Below, piece by piece: positions 3,057-61,798 of a stretch of 64,000 nucleotides of DNA. Location: positions 124,001-188,000 of the forward strand of contig NZ_JAGKSQ010000004.1 in NCBI RefSeq assembly GCF_017939705.1, read 5' to 3'. The stretch's first letter is position 1; the number at the start of each line of letters is the position of its first letter. Source of the stretch: Halalkalibacter suaedae. Lineage in GTDB: Bacteria > Bacillota > Bacilli > Bacillales > Bacillaceae_D. The notes beneath the pieces were generated by a model that had not been told where the DNA came from, made no database searches, and saw only the letters and a list, made by a program, of their open reading frames with translations. A program made the translations under genes and the position numbers.

Positions 3057-4268
3057 TCAACTAAGATGATGAATCTCCTTAACAAACCTTTTAATTGTAT
3101 CTTGTATGCTCATACTACCTAGGTTTCCTTGTTTTCGTTGTCGTAATGCTAAGGATTGATTTTCCATTTCTTTATCACCAATCACAAGCATATAAGGAAT
3201 CTTCTGTTTTTCAGCTTCTCTAATCTTCAATCCCATTTTCTCTGTTCTGTAGTCAACTTCGACACGTATTCCTGCTGACTCAAAATGTGATCTCACCTCA
3301 TTGGCAAAAGCTGCATGTGCGTCAGAAATAGGAATGATCTTTGCTTGGACTGGTGCGAGCCAGAGAGGGAAGTCTCCAGCGAAATGTTCAATTAAAATCG
3401 CCATAAATCGTTCAACAGAACCCAAAATCGCTCGATGAATCATAACGGGCTGCTGTAATTTATTATCTTCATCAACATATGCACAATTAAATTTTTCTGG
3501 CATTTGGAAATCTAATTGGACAGTTCCGCATTGCCAGTTTCTTCCGAGAGAATCTAATATATGAAAATCGATCTTTGGACCATAAAAAGCCCCATCACCA
3601 GCATTAATTTGATAATTCACTTTCTTCATGTTCAAAACAGACTCCAAGGCTAATTCGGCCATATCCCAAATTTCCACAGAACCCATATACTCTTCGGGTC
3701 TTGTCGAAAGTTCTACCCTATACTCAAACCCAAAGTAGGAATAAAACTCATCAATTAATACAAGTATTCGCTCGAGTTCTGATTCGATCTGATCAACCCG
3801 AACAAACAAATGTGCGTCGTCCTGAGTAAACGAGCGAACCCTTAATAGCCCATTTAAAGAGCCTGATAGTTCATGTCTGTGGACTAAGCCAAGCTCTGCA
3901 TAACGAATAGGGAGCTCTCGATAGCTTCGTCGTTTGCTATTGAAAATTAGTATTGCACCAGGGCAGTTCATTGGCTTGATGGCATAATTTTGATTATCAA
4001 CGTTGGAAAAATACATATTTTCATGATAGTGATTCCAATGACCTGATTGCTCCCAGAGCTCCTGTTTCAGCATGACAGGTGTTTTGATTTCCTGGTAGCC
4101 TGCAGTTTGATGCTTTTTTCTCCACAGATTTTCCAGTTCATTTCGAATGATCATTCCATTCGGTAAGAAAAAAGGCATGCCTGGAGCCTCTTCCATTGAA
4201 GTGAAAAGTTCTAATTCTTGACCCAACCTTCTATGATTTCTTCTTTCAGCTTCCACTTGTTTAGACAT
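3057..4268 (-). CDS. Threonyl-tRNA synthetase lacking TGS and editing domains
   Basis: A class II synthetase that charges tRNA-Thr. The 403 residues contain only the catalytic core and the anticodon-binding domain. The zinc ligands of the ThrRS active site are visible as Cys102 (in KPMNCPGA), His153 (in QDDAHLF) and His278 (in VMIHRAILGS). Motif 2 is RHELSG...GLLRVRSF (about 131-147) and motif 3 is HRAILGSVERFMAILIEH. Normal bacterial ThrRS is about 640 residues, with TGS and serine-editing domains in front; both are absent. The start at ATG 4268 has AGGAGG at the right distance; the frame stays open further upstream but only through the terminator of the leader. Two tandem T-boxes control it, as in thrZ of B. 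subtilis (three there). It is probably a starvation-induced or inhibitor-tolerant paralogue of a housekeeping thrS elsewhere. Confidence 0.9.
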   Translation of the reverse strand: MSKQVEAERRNHRRLGQELELFTSMEEAPGMPFFLPNGMIIRNELENLWRKKHQTAGYQEIKTPVMLKQELWEQSGHWNHYHENMYFSNVDNQNYAIKPMNCPGAILIFNSKRRSYRELPIRYAELGLVHRHELSGSLNGLLRVRSFTQDDAHLFVRVDQIESELERILVLIDEFYSYFGFEYRVELSTRPEEYMGSVEIWDMAELALESVLNMKKVNYQINAGDGAFYGPKIDFHILDSLGRNWQCGTVQLDFQMPEKFNCAYVDEDNKLQQPVMIHRAILGSVERFMAILIEHFAGDFPLWLAPVQAKIIPISDAHAAFANEVRSHFESAGIRVEVDYRTEKMGLKIREAEKQKIPYMLVIGDKEMENQSLALRQRKQGNLGSMSIQDTIKRFVKEIHHLS

Positions 4269-4302
4269 TGTAATCCTCCTCAATTTTGTTTGAATTAAAT
4301 AT

Positions 4303-4558
4303 AAAAAAGACCGCACTCTTCCCAATAAAAGGGACGAGTACGGTCGTGGTTCCACCCTGATTCCATAAAACTAATACGTCTTATGCTCAGAAAGATAACG
4401 GATTTACCGATTATAGATACTTTGATTGAACATTTCCCTATAATAGCTCAAAGGTGGTAAACCACTCACATTTCTTCAGGGTTCTCAGCCACCGACCCTG
4501 TTCTCTGTAAAGGAAATATTTGAATGATTCGTGTCCTTTTCAACGCCTAACTATTTCA
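4303..4558 (-). promoter_or_regulatory. T-box riboswitch, gene-proximal unit (Thr specifier ACC)
   Basis: The minus strand carries a complete T-box leader. The T-box core GGTGGAACCACG is at 4356-4345, the terminator hairpin GACCGTACTCGTCCC/GGGAAGAGTGCGGTC at 4345-4309 and its T-run at 4308-4303. The specifier region reads ACC ACC TTTGAGC; ACC at 4458-4456 is a Thr codon, agreeing with the downstream gene. It senses uncharged tRNA-Thr and causes antitermination. Confidence 0.9.
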
Positions 4559-4566
4559 TTTCTAAT

Positions 4567-4830
4567 AAAAAAAGACCGTACTCCTCCCAATAAAAGGGAC
4601 GAGTACGGTCGTGGTTCCACCCTGATTCCATAAAACAAATGCGTCTTATGCTCAGAAAGATAACGGATTTACCTATTATAGATACTCTGATTGAACATTT
4701 CCCTATAATAGCTCGAAGGTGGTAAACCATTCACATTTCTTCAGGGTTCTCAGCCAATGACCCTTTTCTCTGTAAAGAAATAAATTGAATGATTCATGTC
4801 CTTTTCATAGCTTGATTAAATATCGATTAT
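4567..4830 (-). promoter_or_regulatory. T-box riboswitch, promoter-proximal unit (Thr specifier ACC)
   Basis: A second, nearly identical leader copy lies upstream. The core GGTGGAACCACG is at 4621-4610, the terminator hairpin at 4610-4574, the T-run at 4573-4567 and the specifier ACC at 4723-4721, followed by ACCTTCGAGC. Two terminators in series mean both must be antiterminated, which sharpens the response to threonine starvation. Confidence 0.9.
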
Positions 4831-16586: not shown

Positions 16587-16615
16587 TAGTGAAAATTTAC
16601 CATATTATAAACACA

Positions 16616-16851
16616 GTGATTAGGAGTATTAAGGAGTCCTTATTGTTTAGAGAGCTATCGGACGCTGAAAGATAGTCAATAAACTCCCCAACTCGCCTAT
16701 GAGTGGTTAGACCGATATGTAGGTCTGAACGGTTCACTTCCGTAATAAAGTTTTGAGAAGGTTTGTTCAAATGGTTATCTGACAAACCAAGAAGAGTGGT
16801 ACCACGCGAGGTTAATCCTATCGTCTCTTTATGAGATGTTAGGATTTTTTT
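16616..16851 (+). promoter_or_regulatory. T-box riboswitch, probable Leu specifier (CTC)
   Basis: A canonical leader. The stem I AGAGAGC block is at about 16657-16663, the T-box AGTGGTACCACGCG at 16795-16808 and the terminator hairpin AATCCTA...TAGGATT at 16814-16846, followed by a T-run. The specifier region reads AACTCGCCTATGAG; aligned with known leaders (GAA-codon-ACC-TTTGAG) the codon is CTC at 16692-16694, so uncharged tRNA-Leu is the likely effector. The gene it controls is not a synthetase or amino acid gene but a HIT hydrolase. Confidence 0.85.
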
Positions 16852-48927: not shown

Positions 48928-50298
48928 TTAATTTGCTTTTCTCTCGAGTAAAACGACATCTACTTTTACTGGTTCTATCTCTGGTAGTGATTGTTTAAAT
49001 CCTTTTGTTACGAATCCTAGGTAAATCAAACCGAGTGCAACCCAGATGAATCCACCGATTAACGTCGGGAGATCTAATAAGAATAGCAGCCATGTAATGA
49101 AGGCAGTACCAATAATCGGTGAAATTAGGTTAGCAACTAATCCTCGAATCGAGCTTCTATGCTGCTTCTTGTTCTTAAAATAGAGTGTAATGACACATAG
49201 GTTAACAAAGAAGAAAGCTGTTAACGCACCGAAGTTAACAAAACGAAGGGCCGCATCAATTGAAATGAAAATCGCTGATAATGTGATAACGGATGAGAAA
49301 AGAATATTTAGTACAGGTGTCTTATATTTTGGATGAATATAACCAAAGAATTTTTTTGGAAGCATCGAATCACGGCCCATCACATACAAGAGTCTTGAGA
49401 CAGCTGTAACTGAAGCTAAACCTTGTGTGAAAATCGCTGCAATAAGGACGGTAATGAAGATCGAACCTAACAGACTTCCACCAACAATATTGACTAGCTC
49501 CAAGGCTGCGGAGTCTTGGTTTTGAAAAGTGAAATTAGGAACTATCAATTGGATGAAATAGGATGTGGCAACGTGTAATATACCGACAATTCCAATCATG
49601 ATAAAGATTGCACGAGGGATTGTTTTCTTAGGATTGATCGTTTCTTCTGATAAAGTCGTCATTGTATCAAAGCCTAAAAAGGAGAAGATAACTATCGATG
49701 CACCGGCTAAAACAACCGAAAGGGACATTCCACTATTTATAAAAGGGTCCATTGAAACAAGTGTTCCGCTGCCTTCACCGCTAACCAATCCTTTAATGAT
49801 AAAGCCGCAGAAAACGACAATGAAGATGATTTGTAATAGAACGAAGAAGCTACTAATATTGGCTGAAGAATTTACTCCTAATATGCTAATGATGGCTAGT
49901 AGGATTGTTAATCCAATAATCCAAGCATATGGCGGTACTTGAGGGAATTGGGTATTTAGGAAGATTCCAAATGTAATGCAAGCAATAATCGGGGCAAACA
50001 AGTAGTTAAATAGTAAGACCCATCCAACAATAAAACCAAGCTTCGGATTCATTGTTTTCTTTACGAATGTATATGCGGAGCCTGAGATTGGAATTTTCTT
50101 TGCCATAACGGCATAACTCGCTCCAGTAAAAATTACTGCTAACACGGCTACAGCATAGGCAGGAGTTAAGAACCCGCTTGATCCTTCATAAGCTACTCCA
50201 AAAACAGAGAAATATATCATGGGGGTATTCCACGCAAGACCAAGCATGACGACTTGAAATAACGTCAACGTTCTCTTTAAATCTGATTCTTTGTTCAT
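48928..50298 (-). CDS. APC family permease, urea-carboxylase-associated type
   Basis: A 456-residue transporter with 12 predicted helices. The N-terminus TLFQVVMLGLAWNTPMIYFS followed by PAYAVAVLAVIFTGASYAVM is characteristic of the amino acid/polyamine/organocation permeases found beside 'urea carboxylase' operons. It is divergent from the guanidine catabolism operon and shares its intergenic region, including the TnrA-type box. Guanidine or a related nitrogen compound is therefore the likely substrate; this is inference. GGAGCTG lies before the ATG at 50298. No riboswitch is visible in its own leader. Confidence 0.82.
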   Translation of the reverse strand: MNKESDLKRTLTLFQVVMLGLAWNTPMIYFSVFGVAYEGSSGFLTPAYAVAVLAVIFTGASYAVMAKKIPISGSAYTFVKKTMNPKLGFIVGWVLLFNYLFAPIIACITFGIFLNTQFPQVPPYAWIIGLTILLAIISILGVNSSANISSFFVLLQIIFIVVFCGFIIKGLVSGEGSGTLVSMDPFINSGMSLSVVLAGASIVIFSFLGFDTMTTLSEETINPKKTIPRAIFIMIGIVGILHVATSYFIQLIVPNFTFQNQDSAALELVNIVGGSLLGSIFITVLIAAIFTQGLASVTAVSRLLYVMGRDSMLPKKFFGYIHPKYKTPVLNILFSSVITLSAIFISIDAALRFVNFGALTAFFFVNLCVITLYFKNKKQHRSSIRGLVANLISPIIGTAFITWLLFLLDLPTLIGGFIWVALGLIYLGFVTKGFKQSLPEIEPVKVDVVLLERKAN

Positions 50299-50488
50299 CT
50301 CTAAACAGCTCCTTTTTGTGGTTACTACTCATCCTTACATTTTTCTGCAATACTAATTTGCTTCGGTAACGGTTGAAAATGATTATGTTGTTAATTCTTG
50401 TGTAAAATGGATCGGTCTTGCAACAAGTGTGTGATATAAGCTGACATACTTTTCGAACAATTAAGATTTTTCGCATTTGTGAAAACTT

Positions 50489-50505
50489 TGTCATGTTTTC
50501 TAACA
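50489..50505. promoter_or_regulatory. TnrA/GlnR-type box
   Basis: TGTCATGTTTTCTAACA is an exact match to the TGTNA-N7-TNACA pattern of nitrogen regulators TnrA and GlnR. Its centre (50497) is about 50 bp before the predicted transcription start of the guanidine operon, the position from which TnrA activates. Confidence 0.65.
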
Positions 50506-50511
50506 GACTCC

Positions 50512-50540
50512 TTGTTGTCGGTTTGATAAGTCTTTATACT
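50512..50540 (+). promoter_or_regulatory. Promoter of the guanidine catabolism operon
   Basis: TTGTTG at 50512-50517 and TATACT at 50535-50540 are 17 bases apart. The riboswitch begins some 45 bases downstream. Confidence 0.6.
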
Positions 50541-50587
50541 TCGAGTTAAGTTAACCGAATAAAGGTTCTCACAAAGCGTTGAGGACG

Positions 50588-50716
50588 AAAAAGCTTTCTA
50601 GGGTTCCGTTGATGATTGATCAAGCCTGGTCCGAGAGAGAGCGGTACAGATATTCTGTATTACACGGAAGGATAAAAGCCTGGGAGACGACTCCCAACGC
50701 TTTTATCCTTTTTTTT
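50588..50716 (+). promoter_or_regulatory. Guanidine-I (ykkC) riboswitch with terminator
   Basis: The conserved blocks of the guanidine-I aptamer are in order: TTTCTAGGGTTCCG (50595-50608), CTGGTCCGAGAGAGAG (50626-50641) and ACACGGAAGGATAAAAGCC (50662-50680) with TGGGAGAC. The last block overlaps the terminator stem GGATAAAAGC (50670-50679)/GCTTTTATCC (50699-50708), which runs into eight T. Binding of guanidinium should prevent the terminator and turn the operon on. Confidence 0.95.
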
Positions 50717-50747
50717 ATTACCATTTACAAATTGGGAGGTAGCGGAA

Positions 50748-51458
50748 ATGAACTGGAACAAAACAATTCCTGCAGGAGGCAAATGGTCTGGCGTAATTAG
50801 TAAAGGGAAAGAAGTACGATTTACTGCACTTGAAGGGGGAGCAAATCTTTCTGTATTACTCTACAATCCGAACGATTTAAGCGAACGCTACAACATGCCT
50901 GATACTCTAAAGGCGCAGCATACAGCCCATTTAACGACAGGGCATGTTCTTATGAGTGATAACGGGCGGGCGATAGCAAGTATTGTAGAGGATACACTTG
51001 GCTGGCATGATTCAATTTCTGGTTACACAACAAGGGAACTAACAGATGAGAAATACGGCAAAACAACATATCAGGACCTACGTAATGAGTGGTATCGCAG
51101 TGGGCAGGAAAATCTACTAGTTGAACTTGTCCGAAATGGATTAGGAAAGAGAGACTTAGTTCCAAATCTTAATTTATTTTCAAAAGTGTTCTGTGATGAG
51201 GCGGGAAACATGAAGTATGTAGTTGACCATTGTGCAAAAGGAACAACCGTAACACTTCGAACGGAGATGGATTTGCTTTTTGTCGTATCGAACACGCCGA
51301 ATCCGCTTGATCCAAGAACGACGTATCCTTCCGTTCCAGTCAATATGGTAGTAGGAGACGCAGATGAAATCACAGCTGATGATTATTGTTTAAATTTTCG
51401 CCCTGAAAATCGGAGAGCCTTTGAAAATACTTGGGAATACGAAACGTTAGTGAAATAA
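50748..51458 (+). CDS. DUF1989 protein, carboxyguanidine deiminase subunit (urea carboxylase-associated protein 2 type)
   Basis: A 236-residue DUF1989 protein. It opens NKTIPAGGKWSGVISKGKEV followed by RFTALEGGANLSVLLYN and carries the family's conserved SDNGRAIASIVEDTLGWHDS and Cys/His-containing FCDEAGNMKYVVDHCAKG, likely zinc ligands. Two DUF1989 proteins next to a guanidine carboxylase form the heteromeric carboxyguanidine deiminase (CgdA/CgdB), which turns carboxyguanidine into allophanate and ammonia. It is the first gene behind the guanidine-I riboswitch, 12 bases before its partner. GGGAGG precedes ATG 50748. Confidence 0.88.
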   Translation: MNWNKTIPAGGKWSGVISKGKEVRFTALEGGANLSVLLYNPNDLSERYNMPDTLKAQHTAHLTTGHVLMSDNGRAIASIVEDTLGWHDSISGYTTRELTDEKYGKTTYQDLRNEWYRSGQENLLVELVRNGLGKRDLVPNLNLFSKVFCDEAGNMKYVVDHCAKGTTVTLRTEMDLLFVVSNTPNPLDPRTTYPSVPVNMVVGDADEITADDYCLNFRPENRRAFENTWEYETLVK

Positions 51459-51470
51459 GGAGGAGATCAT

Positions 51471-52121
51471 ATGGCAGTTTTTAATCGAGTTGAAAGTGAG
51501 CGTATAGCAGAAGAGGCAATTTACAGCGAGGTCATTCAAGCAGGAGATGGCTGGATGCGTGAAATCGAGCCGGGTCAAGTACTTAGAATAGAAGATTTAG
51601 AAGGAAATCAAGCAGCCGACACATTATTTTTTGATGCCGAGAACCTTGATGATCACTATAGCGCAATTGCTACAATTGCTGGTCAACAAAATATTTATCT
51701 ATCAACAGGTTCAGTGCTTAGAGCAGAATCTGGTAAGCCATTAATGACAATTGTTGCGGATACTTGTGGTCGTCATGACACATTAGGCGGGGCCTGCTCT
51801 GCACAAAGTAACACCGTTCGTTACGCACATGAGACACTACCAATGCATAATTGCCGTGATACATTTATGCTGCAAATGGCAAGATACGATGGCAGCTATA
51901 CGAAGCGTGACTTAGCACCGAATATTAACTTCTTTATGAATGTTCCAGTTACACCAGAGGGCGGACTTACCTTTGCGGACGGAGTATCAGCACCAAATCG
52001 CTATGTAGAAATGAAAGCAGAATGTCGTACGACAGCATTGATTAGCAATTGTCCACAATTGAACAATCCTTGTAATGCATACAATCCAACACCTGTACGG
52101 GTACTAATCTGGGAGAAGTAA
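51471..52121 (+). CDS. DUF1989 protein, second carboxyguanidine deiminase subunit (urea carboxylase-associated protein 1 type)
   Basis: A 216-residue DUF1989 paralogue with [20 protein letters not shown], then [20 protein letters not shown] and [17 protein letters not shown], in which Cys and His residues probably bind zinc. It is expected to assemble with the preceding subunit. The pair is required because carboxyguanidine, unlike carboxyurea (allophanate), must lose ammonia before the final hydrolase can act. AAGGAGGAG lies before ATG 51471. Confidence 0.88.
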
Positions 52122-52159
52122 TCATTTTCTGAGATGGTTCAAAAGGGAGGGAGAACCTT

Positions 52160-55100
52160 TTGAGCTATCTCTCACATAAACAAAGAGAGCGGGGTTTTCA
52201 TATGTTTAAGAAAGTGTTAATAGCAAACCGCGGTGCCATTGCGGTTAGAATAGAGCGAACATTGAAAAAATTAGGAGTGCAGTCAGTCGCAGTTTATACA
52301 GAAGCGGACCAAGACAGCTTACATGTCGACCATGCAGATGAAGCCGTGTTGATCGGTGATGGTCCAGCTAAAGATAGCTACCTAAACGCAGACCTAATTT
52401 TAGAAACAGCGATCAAGACAGGAGCAGAAGCGATCCACCCGGGCTACGGCTTCCTCAGTGAAAATGCCGACTTCGCTCGTGCGTGTCAGGAAAAGGGGAT
52501 CGCCTTCATCGGACCGACTGGGGAGCAAATGGAGATGTTCGGCCTTAAGCATTCAGCTCGTGACATTGCGATCAAAGCTGGAGTTCCTTTGCTACCAGGG
52601 ACGAACCTATTAACAGAATTAGATGAGGCCTTAACAGAAGCTGATGCAATTGGTTATCCTGTTATCTTAAAAAGTACGGCCGGTGGTGGCGGTATCGGGA
52701 TGCGTGTCTGTGAAGATGAGGCAACTCTCCGCCAAGCCTACGAGGGCGTTCGCCACATGGCAGAAACAAACTTTAACAATGGTGGACTCTTTTTAGAAAA
52801 ATATATTGTAAGAGCACGCCATGTCGAAGTACAGATTTTCGGAACAGGGTTAGGAGAAGTGGTGACGTTAGGAGAGCGCGATTGCTCGATCCAACGCCGC
52901 AATCAAAAGGTTATTGAAGAAAGCCCAGCACCTAACCTATCAGACGATGTCCGTGAAAAAATGTTTGCTGCTTCCAAGAGCCTAGCAGAAGAAGTAGGTT
53001 ATCGTAGTGCAGGTACTGTTGAGTTCTTGTATGATCCAGAATCTGAAGAATTTTACTTTCTTGAAGTGAATACGAGACTTCAGGTAGAGCATGGTGTAAC
53101 GGAAGAGGTATTAGGAATTGATCTTGTCGAGTGGATGGTTAAGGAAGCGGCAGATCAGTTGAAGGATTTATCTTCTCTAGTTCAAAAGCCTGTTGGTCAT
53201 AGTATTCAAGCGAGAATCTATGCGGAGGATTGCCTTCAAAACTTCCGTCCAAGTGCAGGTCAACTTGATCAAGTCGTTCTATCAGAGAAAGCTCGTGTGG
53301 AAACATGGTTGCGTGATGGAGTCACCGTGACCACACTCTATGATCCGATGCTTGCAAAGATCATTGTTCATGGTGAAAACCGTGAAGAAGCACTGACGAA
53401 ATTATACGAAGCCTTACAAGAAACCCGCTTCTATGGCCTGACGACAAATCTTCAATACTTACAAGCGTTATTAATAGATGAAGAATGCAAGGCAGGTCGT
53501 GTCTTTACACAAATGTTGAATGGCTTTGAGCCGGTAGAGAACGCGATTGAAGTTTTAGACGGTGGTGTGCAAACGACTGTTCAAGACTTCCCTGGACGTA
53601 CAGGTCACTGGGATGTTGGGGTTCCACCGTGCGGACCTATGGATCCACTTTCCTTCCGAGTTGGAAATAAGCTACTTGGAAACAAGGATGATGCACCAGG
53701 TCTTGAGCTGACATTACGTGGCGGCTCTTACAAGTTTAGAAATGACATCTGGTTTTGTTTAACAGGTGCAGACATGCAGGCTCAATTAGATGAAGAAATA
53801 GTTGAACTTTATAAGCCTATCCAAGCTAAGAAAGGTCAAACTCTCGAATTTGGTGAAGCAAAAACAGGTATGCGAAGCTACTTATTAGTTGCTGGTGGAT
53901 TCGATATGCCGCGCATCCTTAACAGTGCAGCAACATTTACATTAGGTGGATTCGGTGGACATGGTGGCCGTGCCCTTCGCCCTGGTGATGTGTTGAATGT
54001 TACTGGCGGAGTGGAGCCGTTTGAAACAAGAGAGCTCGACCTCACGTCACGACCAGAAATGACGAAAACATGGACAATTGGTGTCATTCCGGGACCGCAT
54101 TGTACAGAGGAGTTTCTGCAACCAGAATACTTAACTCAATTAACTGAAACAAGCTGGGAAGTGCATTTTAACAGCTCACGTACAGGTGTCCGTTTAATTG
54201 GACCAGCACCAAAATGGACGCGTGAAGACGGTGGCGATGCTGGCTTGCATCCATCGAACATCCATGACAATGCGTATGCAGTTGGAACACTTGACTTAAC
54301 AGGTGATATGCCTATTTTACTCGGCCCAGACGGCCCAAGTTTAGGAGGGTTCGTTTGTCCAGTGACAACTGCATCGGCTGAATTCTGGAAGCTTGGTCAA
54401 TTACATCCTGGAGATAAGATTCGTTTTGAGTTACTCACCCTTGATGATGCAAATGAACTGCGTGCGGAACAAGAAAAACAACTAACCGCAATCGGTGAAG
54501 GCACAAGAGCAGAGGTTCGAGTAGAAAGTGTCTTACCACCAGTGAGAGAGGTTGACTCAAATTACCCAATCCTTGCACAAGAAGAGGAAAACAGACGATT
54601 CCCGATGACGATTCGCTGTTCAGGGGATGAGTATCTTCTTGTCGAGTACGGGGAAATGGAGCTTGATTTACTGCTTCGCTTCCAAGCACATGTCTTAATG
54701 AATGCGATTAAGGAAGACGGCGAAATTCCGTATGTGGATCTAACACCAGGGATTCGCTCGCTCCAGGTGCATATTGATCCAACGAAGACAACGGTGCAAG
54801 AAGCCGCGGCGAAAATTATGGAGCTTGATAGCCAATTGCCACCACTTGAAGAGATTGAAGTGCCGTCTCGTATTGTAAAGCTTCCACTATCATGGGATGA
54901 TCCATCGACGCAGCTCGCAACTGAGCGTTATCAAAAAAATGTCCGCCCGGATGCACCATGGTGCCCGAGTAACTTGGAATTCATCCGTCGTATTAACGGT
55001 TTAAATAATTTAGATGAAGTAAAGGATGTTGTTTTTAACGCAAATTATATCGTTATGGGCTTGGGTGATGTGTATTTAGGAGCTCCAGTTGCGACTCCAA

Positions 55101-55837
55101 TGGATCCACGCCATCGTCTAGTGACAACGAAATATAATCCAGCTCGGACGTGGACTCCGGAAAATGCGGTTGGAATCGGTGGTGCCTACATGTGCGTCTA
55201 CGGAATGGAAGGTCCTGGTGGCTACCAATTCGTCGGTCGCACGATTCAAATGTGGAATAAGCTTCGTTCAACAAAGAGCTTTGAAGAAGGGAAGCCATGG
55301 TTGCTCCGTTTCTTTGACCAAATTCAATTTTACCCAGTTGGAGCAGATGAGTTGCTTGAGCTCCGAGAAGATTTCCCGCGTGGCCGGTTTGAAGCGGATA
55401 TTACCGAAACAACCTTTAAGCTTGGTGACTACTTAGCCTTTTTAAAGTCAATCGAAGCAGACACAGCCGTATTCCGTAAGAAGCAGCAGGACTCTTTTAG
55501 AGCCGAGCGAGAAAGCTGGAAGGAAAAAGGGCTAGCAGAATACATTTCCGAACAAGATACCGTAGTCGAAAGTGAAGAGCAAGAGCTTCCAGAAGGGGTT
55601 GTTGGTGTTCACTGCACAATGCCTGGAAGCGTTTGGAAGGTGCTAGTGGAACCAGGCCAATTTGTGAAAAAGGGTGAAACCATTTTAATCGAAGAAAGCA
55701 TGAAAACAGAGTTCCCCCAGCATGCCTCTTGTGATGGCTATATTGACAGCCTTTATGTGAAGCCAGGTGATGAAGTACACGCAGGGCAGCTTATTGCAGG
55801 TATTAGAGCAGAAAAAGTAGAGGCGGTGACGGTATAA
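52160..55837 (+). CDS. Guanidine carboxylase (urea carboxylase family, biotin-dependent)
   Basis: A 1225-residue multidomain enzyme that carboxylates guanidine with ATP and bicarbonate. Biotin carboxylase occupies about residues 15-460 (VLIANRGAIAVRIERT, STAGGGGIGMRVC, EVNTRLQVEHGVTEE). The carboxyltransferase follows as KipA/AHS2 (VPPCGPMDPLSFRVGNKLLG) and KipI/AHS1 (YGEMELDLLLRFQAHVL). The C-terminal biotinyl domain has EESMKTEFPQ, with the lysine to be biotinylated. The context (guanidine riboswitch, DUF1989 pair) argues for guanidine rather than urea. TTG 52160 has a strong GGGAGGGAG site, but relatives begin at MFKKVLIANRG (ATG 52202), so the start is uncertain. Confidence 0.92.
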   Translation: MSYLSHKQRERGFHMFKKVLIANRGAIAVRIERTLKKLGVQSVAVYTEADQDSLHVDHADEAVLIGDGPAKDSYLNADLILETAIKTGAEAIHPGYGFLSENADFARACQEKGIAFIGPTGEQMEMFGLKHSARDIAIKAGVPLLPGTNLLTELDEALTEADAIGYPVILKSTAGGGGIGMRVCEDEATLRQAYEGVRHMAETNFNNGGLFLEKYIVRARHVEVQIFGTGLGEVVTLGERDCSIQRRNQKVIEESPAPNLSDDVREKMFAASKSLAEEVGYRSAGTVEFLYDPESEEFYFLEVNTRLQVEHGVTEEVLGIDLVEWMVKEAADQLKDLSSLVQKPVGHSIQARIYAEDCLQNFRPSAGQLDQVVLSEKARVETWLRDGVTVTTLYDPMLAKIIVHGENREEALTKLYEALQETRFYGLTTNLQYLQALLIDEECKAGRVFTQMLNGFEPVENAIEVLDGGVQTTVQDFPGRTGHWDVGVPPCGPMDPLSFRVGNKLLGNKDDAPGLELTLRGGSYKFRNDIWFCLTGADMQAQLDEEIVELYKPIQAKKGQTLEFGEAKTGMRSYLLVAGGFDMPRILNSAATFTLGGFGGHGGRALRPGDVLNVTGGVEPFETRELDLTSRPEMTKTWTIGVIPGPHCTEEFLQPEYLTQLTETSWEVHFNSSRTGVRLIGPAPKWTREDGGDAGLHPSNIHDNAYAVGTLDLTGDMPILLGPDGPSLGGFVCPVTTASAEFWKLGQLHPGDKIRFELLTLDDANELRAEQEKQLTAIGEGTRAEVRVESVLPPVREVDSNYPILAQEEENRRFPMTIRCSGDEYLLVEYGEMELDLLLRFQAHVLMNAIKEDGEIPYVDLTPGIRSLQVHIDPTKTTVQEAAAKIMELDSQLPPLEEIEVPSRIVKLPLSWDDPSTQLATERYQKNVRPDAPWCPSNLEFIRRINGLNNLDEVKDVVFNANYIVMGLGDVYLGAPVATPMDPRHRLVTTKYNPARTWTPENAVGIGGAYMCVYGMEGPGGYQFVGRTIQMWNKLRSTKSFEEGKPWLLRFFDQIQFYPVGADELLELREDFPRGRFEADITETTFKLGDYLAFLKSIEADTAVFRKKQQDSFRAERESWKEKGLAEYISEQDTVVESEEQELPEGVVGVHCTMPGSVWKVLVEPGQFVKKGETILIEESMKTEFPQHASCDGYIDSLYVKPGDEVHAGQLIAGIRAEKVEAVTV

Positions 55838-57582
55838 TGCACATTCCATACGAGTTAACAGCCCAGTGGTTAAGAGAACAATATACTAGGAAGAAACTGA
55901 CTCCAAAAGCGGTCGTTCTTGAGATTATTGAACGAGCGAAAGCTGACGCTGGAATGAATATTTGGATTACGCCACCATCTCTTGATTTTATTCAACCATA
56001 CCTAGAAAGGCTGAACTCTCTTGATATTGAGAGTTCACCGCTCTGGGGAATTCCTTTTGCGATTAAAGATAATATTGATCTAACCGGTGTTGAAACAACG
56101 GCAGGATGTCCCGATTATGCGTATATACCCAATCAAGATGCATCGGTTGTCGCGAGGTTGATTGCTGCGGGTGCTATTCCAGTTGGGAAAGCGAATCTTG
56201 ATCAATTTGCTACAGGATTAGTGGGAACACGTAGTCCATATGGTGAAACTCATAATGCTTTACGGCCTGAGCTTATCAGTGGTGGATCAAGCTCTGGTTC
56301 AGCCGTTGCGGTCGCACGTGGCCAGGCAGTCTTTGCATTAGGAACAGACACAGCTGGCTCTGGTCGGATTCCAGCACTGCTAAACAACCTAGTCGGATAT
56401 AAGCCGAGTGTTGGAGCTTGGCCTACAAAGGGTGTTGTGCCCGCGTGTGCAAGCTTGGATTGTGTGACCGTCTTTACTCATCAATTCGAGGATGCCTTAC
56501 TTGTTGATCAGATTGCTCGTGGGGGTGAGGAACAGGATCCTTGGTCACGTGAAATTCCAGCCCCTGTTGCATCTGTTCCAGAGCGAATTGTTTTGCCAAA
56601 GGATACTCCGTCCTTTTATGGACCGTTTGCTGATCAGTATCGGCAAGCTTGGGAGCGTACAGTTACTCAGCTCGAGAATCTGAGTGTTCCAATTGACTAT
56701 GTTGACACTCAATTCTTGTCGGATGCAGCGACACTTTTATATGGTGGGCCGATGGTAGCGGAACGCTGGGCGGCACTTGGCTCGTTTGTAGAAGAACATC
56801 CTGGTGTAACGTTTCCAGTAACAGAAGAGGTACTTCGTTCAGGGGCTGCCAGTCATTACGATGCAGCTGCTCTCTTCCAAGCACAGCACCAGCTTCAGGC
56901 GTTTAAATTACAAGCGAGGCAGTTATTTAGAAATGCTGTTTTAATCTTGCCGACTGCTGGTGGAACATGGACGCGTGAGCAAGTACGTGAAAATCCAATT
57001 GAAACTAATAGTGATATGGGACGCTACACAAACCATTGTAATCTACTCGATATGTGTGCAGTCGCCGTTCCATCAGGTGAAGCGGAAGCGAATTTGCCGT
57101 TTGGCATTACGATGTTCGGCTTAGCGGATGAGGAAGGATTGATCTGTGGCACGGCAGATTTATTCTTGAAGGCTAGTAGTCAGATTCAGTTAGAAGAGAC
57201 GACATTTGTAGCGGTCTGTGGCTTGCATATGCGAGGCTTTCCGTTAGAGAAACAAATGAAGGGATGCCGGGCAACTTTTGTTCGTGAAGCTGTTTCAGCT
57301 CCTGTCTATCAATTCGTCAAGCTCCCATCCGAGCCGGCAAAGCCTGGTATGATTAAAAAAAGCGATGGTGGTGGAGGAGCAATCGAGCTTGAAATCTGGG
57401 AAATGCCTCTCAGTGAATTTGGCAAATTTGCAACAATGATCCCAGCCCCGCTCGGCATCGGCAAAGTAGAACTCGCAGACGGAAGTGAAGTCCCAGGCTT
57501 CATCTGTGAAGCGTATGCAGCTGATGGAGCAGAGGATATTACAGAGTTAGGTGGTTGGCGTAAAGTATTACAAGTGAATTAA
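55837..57582 (+). CDS. atzF: Allophanate hydrolase (AtzF/DUR1,2 type)
   Basis: A 581-residue two-domain hydrolase that splits allophanate to two ammonia and two carbon dioxide. The amidase-signature domain (to about 455) shows the catalytic triad: Lys in PFAIKDNIDLTG, then Ser in GGSSSGSAVAVA and Ser in GTDTAGSGRIPA. The C-terminal allophanate hydrolase domain begins near VAVCGLHMRGFPLEKQ and ends in TELGGWRKVLQ. Its ATG overlaps the carboxylase stop by one base, so stoichiometric expression is likely. It ends the guanidine operon; a terminator follows. Confidence 0.93.
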   Translation: MHIPYELTAQWLREQYTRKKLTPKAVVLEIIERAKADAGMNIWITPPSLDFIQPYLERLNSLDIESSPLWGIPFAIKDNIDLTGVETTAGCPDYAYIPNQDASVVARLIAAGAIPVGKANLDQFATGLVGTRSPYGETHNALRPELISGGSSSGSAVAVARGQAVFALGTDTAGSGRIPALLNNLVGYKPSVGAWPTKGVVPACASLDCVTVFTHQFEDALLVDQIARGGEEQDPWSREIPAPVASVPERIVLPKDTPSFYGPFADQYRQAWERTVTQLENLSVPIDYVDTQFLSDAATLLYGGPMVAERWAALGSFVEEHPGVTFPVTEEVLRSGAASHYDAAALFQAQHQLQAFKLQARQLFRNAVLILPTAGGTWTREQVRENPIETNSDMGRYTNHCNLLDMCAVAVPSGEAEANLPFGITMFGLADEEGLICGTADLFLKASSQIQLEETTFVAVCGLHMRGFPLEKQMKGCRATFVREAVSAPVYQFVKLPSEPAKPGMIKKSDGGGGAIELEIWEMPLSEFGKFATMIPAPLGIGKVELADGSEVPGFICEAYAADGAEDITELGGWRKVLQVN

Positions 57583-57593
57583 GTTGAAGAAGG

Positions 57594-57631
57594 CAACAAC
57601 TCCTCCTGGGAAAGGCGGGGTTGTTTTTTTT
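57594..57631 (+). terminator. Intrinsic terminator of the guanidine operon
   Basis: CAACTCCTCC pairs with GGCGGGGTTG around TGGGAAA, followed by eight T (57624-57631). Confidence 0.85.
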
Positions 57632-58019
57632 ATGTTCACAAGGGACCACTATCTTCGCGTCGCTGGTGCGGACAATCGTTCCGTTATGATAAAAAAAATG
57701 CGAGATTTCAGATTGTTGTGGACATACATTACTCTATTAATCTCAAATTAGTTGATTCACCAGAGCTCGACCAAATAAGGTACCAGAAGTGCCCCAATAA
57801 TATGAATCCTTTTTATATTAAAAAATACCTGATTCAATGTCCGTTAGTTCCTAGCTTACTTTGTTTGCTGACCACTAATTCTCAAACCTTTTTAAAAGAA
57901 TTACCTGACTGGGAAGAAGACTAGAGAATGTCAATGAAGAGAGAGGGGAATAGAGGTTTCTTTCGTTGAAAATAAGGAGGATGAAAAGCAAAGGGATTGT
58001 TTGAGTTCAGTGTATAGGG

Positions 58020-58050
58020 AAAATATTGTATTATTAAAGGACAATATTTT
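58020..58050. repeat. Inverted repeat and orphan ribosome binding sites before the TPR gene
   Basis: AAAATATTGT (58020-58029) and ACAATATTTT (58041-58050) form a perfect 10-bp inverted repeat, a possible operator. In the same leader AAGGAGG occurs at about 57974-57980 and 58053-58058, each followed by only a few codons before a stop (for example TTG 58072, ending TGA 58099). Between 57632 and 58134 I see no convincing gene; a 68-codon frame from GTG 57718 has no ribosome binding site. Confidence 0.45.
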
Positions 58051-58143
58051 ACAAGGAGGTTGGATAACATTTGAGAAAGCTAGGTGGATACGATACATGA
58101 GATGAAGATGTAAAATATAAATTCCATTATAAGGATGATACTC

Positions 58144-60060
58144 GTGAAAACAATCAATTTATCTAAACAACAAATAGAATCAGCGAGAATAGCAAATAGA
58201 CCTTCACTTAAACTCAAAATTGCATACCACACGACGAAGCAAGGCGATTACGAACGTGCCCGTAGGCTTTATGAGTCAAGCGATTTCTCATTGTTTTCTG
58301 ATGATCAAAAGCTTGATTATTGTAAAGTCCTTCATGAAGCTCAATATTCAGATCGAGCCTTGGGCCTTCTTATACAATTAGAAGACGAACTAGATGATCC
58401 CTTTTTATATAACCTAAAAGCAAACATTCTTAGAGAAACGGGTGATCATGATGAAGAAGCTCTTATTGCCATTAATGAGGGCCTAAAACGTAACCCGACA
58501 TCTCAGAGGGAGTTTTACTTTTACACAAGAGCACTAATTCATATGGACCTTGGCTATAACGAGGAAGCCATTCAGGATTACAAGGAAACCATTCGTTTGG
58601 AATCTCAAGAATCAGTTTGCTCTACTTGGTATGAATTAGCTGTTCATTATTCTACTCTATTAAGATCAGAAGAAGCCCTGTTTGCTTTTCACAAAGCCAT
58701 CGAAAGAGAAGAACATGTTGTGCCGATGTACTATTACCGACTAGCGATGGAGTTAAGAGAGAAAGGGCAATATTCTGATGCTGTGAGCTATCTTAAAGAA
58801 GCTTCCCATTTGCATCAGAAATTAGTAGTAACTGAGGATTTTGGCCGGGTGGAGTACTTCAATAGAGCTCAATATTCGACCGCTGCATTTTTGAATTTTC
58901 ATGAACAAGCCGAAGATCGTTGCTCCTACTTGATTGATCTTGCTCAAATTTATTTAGATCTGGAGCAAGTCGATGAGGCACTAGCCACATATGAGAATGC
59001 CATCTCTTTATACCCACGTTCTGATATTCCTTTTCTAGAAAGGGGATTGTTTTACCGGGGAATTAATAAGTATGAAAAGGCTATAGATGACTTTAAAAAA
59101 GGACTAGAGCTAGACCCAACTTATCCGATGTACACGTATTGGCTTGCAAGTTCCTATCTAGCATTAGAGCAGTATGAGAAGGCACTTTCACTTTACAATA
59201 TTGTAATTGAGGAAGACCCAGCAGATGGTCATATTCTGCTTGAACGAGGCTTAACGCTTTTGGGATTGAAACGTTATGAGGAGGCAGAAGCTGATTACAC
59301 GTCCGCTCTCCTGCTTGATCAGGAGAATAGTGAAATATTGTGGAAACGAAGCGACGCTCGAATGTATCTTGCAAAGTATGAAGAGGCTCTGGCTGATCTC
59401 ATGAAAGCTCAACATCATAATCCTACACTAGAACAAGATCCATTCTTCTTGCTTGACGTTGCGATGCTGTTAAAATCGTTAGACTATTATGATGAAGCGG
59501 CAGTCGAGTTAACCAAAGCAATTGAGTTAGATGAAAATCATCCTTTGTTTTACCTGAAGAGAGCTGAAATTTATACAGATGTGAAGAGACATGCAGAGGC
59601 GTTAGCTGATTGCGATCGAGCTCTTGTTCTTGGTGGCAATCAATCAAACATTCATTGGCTCCGAGGGCTCATTTATTTAAATGATGACAAACCAGAAGAG
59701 GCTCTTCTTGATGCAATAGAATATCAAATCCTTAATCCGGCAGACCCAGCTTCCTATTATAATCTGGCACTTGTTTATGCAGAACTTGCAGACATAGAAA
59801 ATGAAGTGACTAATCTGGAAACCTGTCTATCCATTGATCCATCCTACCGAGCCGCATACTATCAATTAGCCCAGTTACATGATTATTGGATGAACATGGA
59901 TGAGGCTCTTTCTCACCTCTTAACATGGCTTGAATTAGATAAAGAATGGACCTATGAAGAAAAAATGGAATTTCTAGAAGACTCCCATTTTTCGACTGAG
60001 CTTTTAGAAAACGTTCAAATACGCTTACAATTGGATCATCAAAAAGGCTTTCTTGCATAA
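58144..60060 (+). CDS. Tetratricopeptide repeat protein
   Basis: A protein of about 638 residues made mainly of TPR units of 34 residues, for example NKYEKAIDDFKKGLELDPTY, EQYEKALSLYNIVIEEDPAD and KRYEEAEADYTSALLLDQEN. About 14 repeats run from near residue 20 to 610, with no signal peptide, membrane segment or enzymatic domain. It should be a large soluble scaffold for protein contacts. GTG 58144 lies seven bases from AAGGAT; ATG 58135 overlaps that site. A long leader with an inverted repeat precedes it. No partner gene is evident. Confidence 0.85.
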   Translation: MKTINLSKQQIESARIANRPSLKLKIAYHTTKQGDYERARRLYESSDFSLFSDDQKLDYCKVLHEAQYSDRALGLLIQLEDELDDPFLYNLKANILRETGDHDEEALIAINEGLKRNPTSQREFYFYTRALIHMDLGYNEEAIQDYKETIRLESQESVCSTWYELAVHYSTLLRSEEALFAFHKAIEREEHVVPMYYYRLAMELREKGQYSDAVSYLKEASHLHQKLVVTEDFGRVEYFNRAQYSTAAFLNFHEQAEDRCSYLIDLAQIYLDLEQVDEALATYENAISLYPRSDIPFLERGLFYRGINKYEKAIDDFKKGLELDPTYPMYTYWLASSYLALEQYEKALSLYNIVIEEDPADGHILLERGLTLLGLKRYEEAEADYTSALLLDQENSEILWKRSDARMYLAKYEEALADLMKAQHHNPTLEQDPFFLLDVAMLLKSLDYYDEAAVELTKAIELDENHPLFYLKRAEIYTDVKRHAEALADCDRALVLGGNQSNIHWLRGLIYLNDDKPEEALLDAIEYQILNPADPASYYNLALVYAELADIENEVTNLETCLSIDPSYRAAYYQLAQLHDYWMNMDEALSHLLTWLELDKEWTYEEKMEFLEDSHFSTELLENVQIRLQLDHQKGFLA

Positions 60061-60182
60061 TAGGTAAATTTCCTCCGTCCTTTAGAGTGTTATATGGACA
60101 TGGGTTCCGCTATACACCTCAAAATAGGACTCATTCAACAAACCTTTGTTGCATAAGGTATCTGATGTCCGTCAATCATATC

Positions 60183-60220
60183 AAAAACCGTTCCTTTCAT
60201 TAGAAACGGTTTTTGTTATT
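60183..60220 (+). terminator. Intrinsic terminator of the TPR gene
   Basis: AAAAACCGTT (60183-60192) pairs with AACGGTTTTT (60205-60214), then GTTATTT. The rest of the gap to 60407 holds only a doubtful 23-codon frame (60251-60322) that encodes a hydrophobic peptide without a ribosome binding site. Confidence 0.75.
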
Positions 60221-60406
60221 TAATAATAGGAAATTAATGTTAAACTATGAATGAGTTATGTGAAACTAGTAATTGCAATTGGAATAATTGTAATTCGTGT
60301 GATCTTTAATTGGATTAAATAAATTTATCATAGTAACGAATAGTCGGAAACAAGTGTTTAGAAAAGGAAACCTAGTAAAACACGGTAAATGGGGGACAAC
60401 AACTAT

Positions 60407-60835
60407 ATGTATGGGATTGAACCGAACTTTTGGCTGAGATTAATAGTGTTATTAACAATTGTATTATTATTGTTAATTTCATTTGACAAACTAATGAGAA
60501 CCTTGTTCAAAACGAAGAAAAAGAAACGATTTTCCTATAACCATATCAATGAAAAACATAAAAAAATAGACTGGATCATTAGAATAGCGACAATGGTTTT
60601 TCTCATATTGGGATTTGTAAATAATATTATGACAGATCCTAATAGATGGCCTTGGTTCTTGGAGCCATGGTTGATCACATTTGTTTTTATTTCTCTTTCC
60701 GAAATGGTTAGAGCAATTTTTGAGCGAAAGTATGCTGAGAATCCTAATGATTATAAAGTGACCATTAGTCAAATTGTATTTATTCTTTTATTAGTTTTTG
60801 TATTGTTTCAGACTGATTTTTTTGGACTCGTGTAA
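60407..60835 (+). CDS. DUF4181 family membrane protein
   Basis: A 142-residue four-helix protein. The diagnostic stretch KKRFSYNHINEKHKKIDWII and the later SLSEMVRAIFERKYAENPND fit DUF4181 as I know it. Helices lie near 8-26, 52-72, 83-100 and 118-138. The function is unknown. GGGGGA lies ten bases before ATG 60407; ATG 60389 precedes that ribosome binding site and is less likely. A relative lies at 33633 in this window. Confidence 0.75.
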   Translation: MYGIEPNFWLRLIVLLTIVLLLLISFDKLMRTLFKTKKKKRFSYNHINEKHKKIDWIIRIATMVFLILGFVNNIMTDPNRWPWFLEPWLITFVFISLSEMVRAIFERKYAENPNDYKVTISQIVFILLLVFVLFQTDFFGLV

Positions 60836-60932
60836 AGAATGGAGGGATTTATTGATGACTGTCACTACCTGAACTATGTCGAAGTCATATTGACAAGATA
60901 CGGGTTTTGACAGCCTGTTTTACGATTCATGA

Positions 60933-61247
60933 TCACGATACAAGTTTAAGTCCTACCGCAGCACTTAAAATCATTGCAATGAAAACCAACCTTTTCCAAT
61001 CCTTTGATTCTCCATAGAAAATCATCCCTAAAATGGCTCCACCAGACGCACCAATTCCTGTCCAAATGGCATAAGCGGTTCCCATAGGGAGTGTTTTCAT
61101 TGAAAAAGATAATAATAGGAAGCTTGCTCCAAATCCAAAAACTAATAGAATTAGGGATTTCCAATGACGGTCCTTATGAAATTTATTTATCATAGCGACA
61201 CCAAACATTTCAAATATTCCAGCTAAGATTAAAGAAATCCAGGCCAT
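60933..61247 (-). CDS. ykkD: SMR family transporter, YkkD-like guanidinium exporter subunit
   Basis: A 104-residue four-helix small multidrug resistance protein. The active Glu lies in the first helix (ISLILAGIFEMFGVAMINKF), and the central IWTGIGASGGAILGMIFYGE segment is typical. Its ATG overlaps the stop of the upstream SMR gene by one base (TAATG on the minus strand), so the two should be made together as a paired exporter. Riboswitch-controlled SMR proteins of this kind (Gdx, YkkCD) export guanidinium in exchange for protons. Confidence 0.88.
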   Translation of the reverse strand: MAWISLILAGIFEMFGVAMINKFHKDRHWKSLILLVFGFGASFLLLSFSMKTLPMGTAYAIWTGIGASGGAILGMIFYGESKDWKRLVFIAMILSAAVGLKLVS

Positions 61248-61588
61248 TAGGAATCAGCCCCTTCCTGAACGTTATCCTTAGTTAGTAATTTCAAGCCAGT
61301 TACCCCCACTAGCAACAGTAAAATCAAAAGTATTTTACTCATCTTGAATGGTTCTCCGAAGAGTATGATTTCGGAAATAACAGTGCCAGCTGTACCCAGT
61401 CCTACAAAAACGGCATACACAGTTCCGACGGGGAGTTTTCGCCCTGCCATAATCAATACATAGAAGCTGATGATGATGGATATGACTGTTCCAGTCCAAG
61501 TCCAAAAGCCATCTGCATATTTCAAACCAATAACCCAAAATACTTCGAATAGAGCCGCAATAAAAACTTTCATCCAATCAGTGTTCAT
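61247..61588 (-). CDS. ykkC: SMR family transporter, YkkC-like guanidinium exporter subunit
   Basis: A 113-residue four-helix SMR protein. The first helix carries the conserved Glu in [20 protein letters not shown], and the [20 protein letters not shown] segment follows. GGAGGTGA lies seven bases before the ATG at 61588; the frame opens earlier at 61621 but only through the leader. It sits directly behind a guanidine-I riboswitch on the minus strand, so induction by guanidinium is expected, as for ykkCD of B. subtilis. Confidence 0.9.
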
Positions 61589-61620
61589 TGAAATGTCACC
61601 TCCAAAATTAATGCTGACCA

Positions 61621-61747
61621 AAAAACAAAAAAACCTAGAGATACTGTTTAACAGTTATCTCCCAGGCTTTTTTCCTTCCGTGACACAGCAAGCTGTGAGT
61701 TTTCTCTCGGACCAGTCCAACGGTAATGCTGCGGAACCCTAGAAAAC
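61621..61747 (-). promoter_or_regulatory. Guanidine-I (ykkC) riboswitch with terminator
   Basis: On the minus strand the aptamer blocks appear in order: CTAGGGTTCCGC (61742-61731), CTGGTCCGAGAGAAAAC (about 61716-61700) and CACGGAAGG...AAAAAAGCCTGGGAGAT. The terminator stem CCTGGGAGATAACTG/CAGTATCTCTAGG (61665-61634) runs into a T-rich tail (61633-61621). It controls the two SMR genes. Confidence 0.94.
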
Positions 61748-61770
61748 TTTTCTCAATGCAATTAACTTAG

Positions 61771-61798
61771 ATTATACACATAACTATAGAACATTCAA
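61771..61798 (-). promoter_or_regulatory. Promoter of the ykkCD-like operon
   Basis: TTGAAT (61798-61793) and a perfect TATAAT (61776-61771) are 16 bases apart on the minus strand, some 25 bases before the aptamer. Confidence 0.7.

Follow-up and report, generated by a model that had tools for sequence, protein, structure and literature searches.

The 64,000-nucleotide (nt) window of Halalkalibacter suaedae (contig NZ_JAGKSQ010000004.1, positions 124,001 to 188,000) carries a guanidine catabolic operon, a divergent APC-family permease gene and a pair of small multidrug resistance (SMR) exporter genes, with one guanidine-I aptamer ahead of the operon and another ahead of the exporters. We consider it likely that the region constitutes a two-armed guanidine response, in which assimilation would be gated by nitrogen limitation together with guanidine, and export by guanidine alone. 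Under nitrogen limitation, TnrA (or GlnR) would bind two boxes at 50430-50505 and activate the divergent permease and catabolic promoters; catabolic transcripts would pass the leader terminator only with guanidine on the aptamer, and the carboxylase, carboxyguanidine deiminase and allophanate hydrolase would be made only when guanidine coincides with a shortage of nitrogen. The permease, which has no aptamer in the window's lineage, would answer to nitrogen limitation alone. The SMR pair would be switched on by guanidine alone, since its promoter is close to consensus and lacks a nitrogen box. Guanidine would then be expelled under nitrogen excess, and taken up and degraded to ammonia under nitrogen shortage. 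There is good reason to expect the same logic across Bacillales, with importers and the carboxylase operon under a two-input gate (a TnrA/GlnR promoter and a guanidine-I terminator) and export under guanidine alone, such that nitrogen status decides whether guanidine is eaten or expelled. What keeps the two programmes apart is probably the promoters, more than the affinity of the aptamers.

Guanidine-I leaders and nitrogen boxes

The catabolic aptamer (50587-50688, plus strand) and the exporter aptamer (61657-61753, minus strand) score 90.4 and 81.4 bits against RF00442 in an Rfam cmscan (cut-off 63); at E <= 0.001 the genome has no further match. Each runs into an intrinsic terminator. The terminator of the catabolic leader (50670-50716, plus strand) has a stem at 50670-50708, GGATAAAAGCCTGGGAGACGACTCCCAACGCTTTTATCC, followed by eight T, with an energy of -22.0 kcal/mol and a 5' arm formed by the last 20 nt of the aptamer; that of the exporter leader (61627-61666, minus strand) has a stem at 61666-61634, CCTGGGAGATAACTGTTAAACAGTATCTCTAGG, followed by seven T, with an energy of -12.9 kcal/mol and a 5' arm formed by the last 11 nt. 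Both leaders thereby appear to possess the aptamer-overlapping expression platform that is characteristic of a guanidine-I riboswitch. A previous sequence-only reading of this DNA had described two ykkC-type aptamers on opposite strands, ahead of a DUF1989/carboxylase/allophanate hydrolase operon and an SMR pair, with terminators overlapping the last aptamer helix in both leaders, and this description is borne out. In score over the cut-off, transcription-ON layout and terminator overlap, the leaders resemble guanidine-I (ykkC) riboswitches, and no difference was seen in the aptamers themselves; the window holds two copies with opposite outputs, 11 kb apart.

The motif TGTNAN7TNACA is the TnrA and GlnR consensus in Bacilli according to the available text of PMC3412718 and PMC6191146. 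The window contains two exact matches, both inside the 288-bp gap between the permease gene and the catabolic aptamer: one on the permease side (50430-50446, no strand, TGTGATATAAGCTGACA) and one on the catabolic side (50489-50505, no strand, TGTCATGTTTTCTAACA), each also exact in three aligned relatives. Two boxes in 64 kb are about the chance number (1.65 expected), and the motif is not generally enriched in the genome (100 exact boxes vs 130 for the reversed control pattern); it is the placement, not the number, that goes beyond chance. A probable catabolic -10 element, TATACT (50535-50540, plus strand), starts 38 nt after the centre of the catabolic-side box, and a weak -35-like TTGTTG (3/6) stands 17 nt upstream of it. 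On the other strand, a probable permease -10, AAGAAT (50394-50399, minus strand, assigned by eye), is separated from the permease-side box by 39 nt, measured to the box centre; the stretch around it is conserved among the aligned nearest relatives. The exporter promoter, TTGAAT-N16-TATAAT (61771-61798, minus strand), matches 10 of the 12 consensus positions, and no exact nitrogen box was found within 300 bp upstream of the exporter aptamer.

Both candidate regulators are encoded in the genome, by open reading frames (ORFs) of L172 and L171: a TnrA-like protein with 102 bits to 4r24, and a GlnR-like protein with 95.7 bits to 4r4e, on another contig (L171) than glnA. The boxes at the promoters are conserved, and the permease and the operon are predicted to belong to the TnrA/GlnR regulon and to be bound by one of these proteins. 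The glnA gene (L167 593-3344) directly follows a 416-residue ORF, and glnR, its usual neighbour in Bacillus subtilis, is not in the stretch read; adjacency of the two genes is ruled out there, the GlnR-like gene lying elsewhere (L171).

The box split among related leaders

In a first pass, 58 related loci qualified by having an aptamer no more than 600 bp away from the first DUF1989 gene; 53 of them carry an exact box in the 300 bp upstream, with 88 boxes against 0.6 expected. The full comparison comprised 195 aptamers: the window together with its 80 related loci contributed 111, other places in 48 searched genomes 48, and the window's own family 36. For the 48-genome set, 49 of the 80 loci were given, L051 was left out and only places over the cut-off were taken; the own-family set holds 36 of 43 over-cut-off places, the rest being five in genomes that the 48-genome set covers and the two of the window itself. 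Aptamer matches under the cut-off were excluded from the 195, and an identical-row filter removed none. Leaders were classed by their first downstream gene, using BLAST to the window proteins within 450 nt, and were scored for an exact TGTNAN7TNACA within 300 bp upstream of the aptamer (just 189 nt for the exporter leader L122). The classes separate sharply: boxes stand ahead of 59 of the 64 catabolic leaders, 33 of the 34 APC permease leaders and 27 of the 31 other Bacillales leaders, but ahead of none of the 56 SMR exporter leaders and none of the 10 non-Bacillales leaders. Shuffling would give 0.73 catabolic, 0.25 APC, 0.23 other, 0.40 SMR and 0.06 non-Bacillales leaders. The reversed pattern was present in 1/64, 0/34, 2/31, 0/56 and 0/10 leaders of these classes, respectively, and the box pattern itself occurred in 0/195 stretches at 150-450 nt downstream of the aptamer. 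Within the other Bacillales class, the first gene, as judged by eye, is an ABC-transporter gene in 21 of the 31 leaders and a chemoreceptor gene in two.

The split between catabolic and exporter boxes gives a Fisher p of 8e-29, a value that ignores kinship. Among 27 genomes with both arms, 24 combine a boxed catabolic leader with an unboxed exporter leader. This pairing bears directly on whether the split is an artefact of phylogeny, the sampled exporters coming from lineages without TnrA/GlnR control. Such sampling is conceivable inasmuch as the window's own family, and not genomes found through the operon, supplied 36 of the 195 leaders; however, the split is kept within single genomes, and boxed catabolic leaders occur in the own family too (L134, L135, L141 and L145). 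The paired genomes largely refute this explanation, and we consider it very improbable.

The positions of the boxes fit activation. Between -79 and -104 relative to the aptamer there are 47 catabolic and permease boxes. For 32 of them, a strong -10 element (score >= 5.5, taking the best site between +30 and +51 relative to the box centre), mostly TATACT, starts 37-39 nt from the box centre, which places the box near -50 from the transcription start. TnrA activates from near -50. Exporter promoters are slightly nearer to consensus than catabolic promoters (median 10/12 vs 9/12, p = 0.007).

The boxes might instead act through repression by GlnR under nitrogen excess rather than activation by TnrA, which would preserve the same net logic with another protein and the opposite sign; we regard this as unlikely, though to be taken seriously. 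A box lying 37-39 nt before the -10 has the layout of activated promoters, and the Bacillaceae catabolic box, that of the window included, mostly lies at this distance; a TnrA-like protein is also encoded in the genome. On the other hand, the genome has a GlnR-like gene as well, and GlnR and TnrA share a common site in the available text of PMC6191146. Moreover, many Paenibacillus catabolic leaders carry an additional box at about -19 relative to the aptamer, an arrangement reminiscent of the nif promoter, whose site II is described as repressing in the same text.

Several points weigh against nitrogen-gated assimilation beside guanidine-gated export. The whole case is computational; related genomes are not independent, and kinship inflates the p-values. 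Three of the 27 two-arm genomes (G037, G054 and G073) have no box at either leader, and 5 of the 64 catabolic leaders have no exact box. A one-mismatch box is present in 9 of the 56 exporter leaders, about as commonly as in shuffles (6.7 expected, range 3-12). No strong -10 stands at the expected distance from 15 of the 47 boxes, seven of which belong to divergent-type permease promoters, and the permease -10 of the window is itself weak (4/6). The Paenibacillus box at about -19 could serve repression instead of activation. In addition, the available text of PMC4475385 reports that TnrA gave a ChIP-on-chip peak at B. subtilis ykkC, an exporter leader, where a non-exact box was newly predicted; in the same text, loss of tnrA left PykkC expression unchanged in the tested conditions, for whose media it mentions no guanidine.

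Differences in affinity or terminator strength offer another way to part the two arms. The sequence-only reading had made unequal aptamer affinities the key question, which misses the clearest difference, boxes at 59/64 catabolic vs 0/56 exporter leaders, while weak differences between the expression platforms in genome pairs lend the idea something. If it were chiefly the tuning of aptamer or terminator that set the switches apart, through different guanidine thresholds, the boxes would be secondary; we find this rather doubtful. The comparison of terminator stabilities proposed in that reading came out in favour of tuning within the window, where the catabolic terminator is the stronger (-22.0 vs -12.9 kcal/mol), but not over all leaders, where catabolic and exporter energies are alike (median -23.1 vs -22.8 kcal/mol, p = 0.85). 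Within the 25 of 27 genome pairs in which both terminators were detected, hairpins are slightly more stable on the catabolic side (median -24.7 vs -22.8, p = 0.034), and the distance from aptamer to T-run is greater on the exporter side (median 26 vs 19 nt, p = 0.014). Over all leaders this distance differs as well (p = 0.029), and so, slightly, does the aptamer-terminator overlap (median 12 vs 11 nt, p = 0.0006). These effects are small beside the box split, and the conserved core is identical between the window's two aptamers; A1 was picked by regular expression, and its invariance is therefore partly built in. The platform differences in genome pairs may be weak hints of different tuning, and different terminator strength was rejected as a general rule. 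The overlap itself is nearly universal, as the terminator shares at least 5 nt with the aptamer in 61/61 catabolic and 52/54 exporter leaders with a detected terminator, none being detected in 3 catabolic and 2 exporter leaders.

Putative genes for catabolism, uptake and export of guanidine

The catabolic operon comprises four genes on the plus strand. Two DUF1989 proteins, UAAP1 (50748-51458; TIGR03425, 308.7 bits, above cut-off) and UAAP2 (51471-52121; TIGR03424, 306.3 bits, cut-off 284.7), are the probable subunits of carboxyguanidine deiminase. They are followed by a putative biotin-dependent guanidine carboxylase of 1211 residues (52202-55837; TIGR02712, 1741 bits), which shares 92% identity with the H. 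urbisdiaboli carboxylase, and by an allophanate hydrolase (55837-57582; TIGR02713, 620.7 bits) with Amidase and AH_C domains. As the family model TIGR02712 is named for urea carboxylase, the operon could be taken to serve urea, the riboswitch being incidental. Aspartates at K. lactis positions 1330 and 1584 mark guanidine carboxylases in the available text of PMC11410670, and the review PMC12186494, in its available part, gives the same aspartate/asparagine split between guanidine and urea carboxylases. Alignment to 5i8i places D698 of the window carboxylase opposite K. lactis N1330, and D956, located by counting along the alignment, opposite D1584; both positions are aspartate in the window and in 80/80 related loci. 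The two residues fit a guanidine carboxylase, asparagine at the first position being the mark of urea enzymes, and the operon has both DUF1989 subunits and a guanidine-I aptamer. A urea operon was rejected on these diagnostic residues and is, in our view, scarcely credible. The enzyme is predicted to be of the guanidine type, and the two DUF1989 subunits and the allophanate hydrolase would complete the guanidine carboxylase pathway.

The permease gene (48928-50298, minus strand; Pfam AA_permease_2) is divergent from the operon and lies just outside the range 50588-61747 covered by the sequence-only reading. It falls far short of the urea-carboxylase permease model TIGR03428 (57.8 vs cut-off 740), and this assignment was rejected. 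Among the 80 related loci, 49 encode a homologue, with two weak matches (26-28%) included in that count. A guanidine-I aptamer stands directly ahead of a homologous APC permease in 34 leaders, 31 of them in operon loci, either in tandem before the operon (e.g. L005, L009 and L031) or divergent from it (e.g. L007, L014 and L038). The permease is tied to guanidine because of these 34 leaders, and is probably a guanidine importer, both the substrate and the direction of transport being predicted from them; the "probable uptake" of the sequence-only reading is much better supported as a result. The window permease has no second aptamer of its own: a search of 50200-50800 with filters off found none, the next-best match having 2.9 bits. 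The divergent second aptamers of Paenibacillus precede the APC permease, which rules them out as exporter switches.

SMR protein 1 (61247-61588, minus strand) and SMR protein 2 (60933-61247, minus strand) both match PF00893. Their scores to 6wk5, which we take to be Gdx-Clo, are 76.6 and 75.1 bits, compared to 30.9 and 31.8 bits for the best EmrE entry, the 6wk5 group being the closest solved relative of the pair. SugE is the top-scoring NCBIfam model for both, with 82.6 and 76.2 bits, and we call the pair Gdx-like rather than SugE because the cut-off of 126 is not reached. The pair appears nearer to Gdx than to EmrE and is predicted to export guanidine. With genes for probable uptake, degradation and export all present, the window does hold a nearly complete guanidine programme, as had been proposed. 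The closeness of the two outputs does not generalize: SMR matches occur in only 2 of the 80 related loci (L043 and L062), counted over fetched stretches of up to 10 kb on each side, some cut by contig ends, and an exporter beside the operon was discarded as a general arrangement. SMR protein 1 is 84% identical to its counterpart in the Bacillus sp. SA1-12 genome, compared to about 46-73% for those own-family exporters that have it as their best match, and the exporter cassette may have been acquired from outside the family. In L151 (genome G037, same family), which has aptamers at 1095 and 2405 (minus strand), one aptamer precedes a gene for an arginase/agmatinase-family protein, identified by eye, followed by an SMR pair, and has no nitrogen box; this is perhaps a guanidinase-like detoxification unit.

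Relation to known systems and other leaders

Guanidine-I switches over both outputs, the carboxylase pathway and Gdx pumps are already known. The operon shares its enzymes, the diagnostic aspartates and a riboswitch at its head with the guanidine carboxylase pathway of Pseudomonas syringae and Vreelandella boliviensis, but differs in having an APC permease in place of an ABC importer, and nitrogen-control boxes ahead of the leader; guanidine-II, present in V. boliviensis, has no cmscan match in the window. Similar to the Gdx exporters and YkkCD of B. subtilis, the SMR genes form an adjacent pair under a guanidine-I leader, with EmrE far behind in score, whereas the catabolic operon lies near them here rather than elsewhere in the genome. 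The Nitrospira inopinata locus encodes a guanidinase instead of a carboxylase, and the available description of it includes neither an exporter nor a TnrA/GlnR box. Exact boxes at activator distance, together with TnrA-like and GlnR-like genes, are features shared with the TnrA/GlnR regulon of Bacilli, from which the window operon differs in combining the nitrogen input with a riboswitch.

No description of a nitrogen gate on guanidine genes was found in the literature searched; most subscription papers and the curated regulon databases were outside the search, and an earlier prediction may exist there. The available text of PMC9948412, PMC3412718 and PMC4475385 does not name guanidine assimilation as a TnrA/GlnR target, and that of PMC12452182 does not describe such a gate. 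Detoxification and assimilation are both under guanidine riboswitches, and an RNA that responds to a single ligand cannot on its own tell the cell which of them to choose; a nitrogen gate on one arm, if true, would explain how one molecule triggers opposite actions. The data also tie these APC permeases strongly to the uptake of guanidine in Gram-positives, and lend support to guanidine as a genuine nitrogen source in these bacteria.

Further leaders were seen in the related genomes and in the window. A boxed guanidine-I aptamer stands directly before a gene for a methyl-accepting chemotaxis protein, identified by eye, in L147 (1099-1200, same genus) and in L096 (1167-1263, Paenibacillus oryzisoli); from these two cases, guanidine chemotaxis is possibly under the same nitrogen and guanidine gate. 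The family genomes contain 16 further RF00442 matches of 33-44 bits, under the cut-off, which are presumably ykkC subtype 2 leaders. The window also has two tandem T-box leaders at 4327-4817 (minus strand; 103.1 and 95.0 bits) before a threonyl-tRNA synthetase-like gene (3057-4355, by eye), and a third T-box at 16607-16831 (plus strand).

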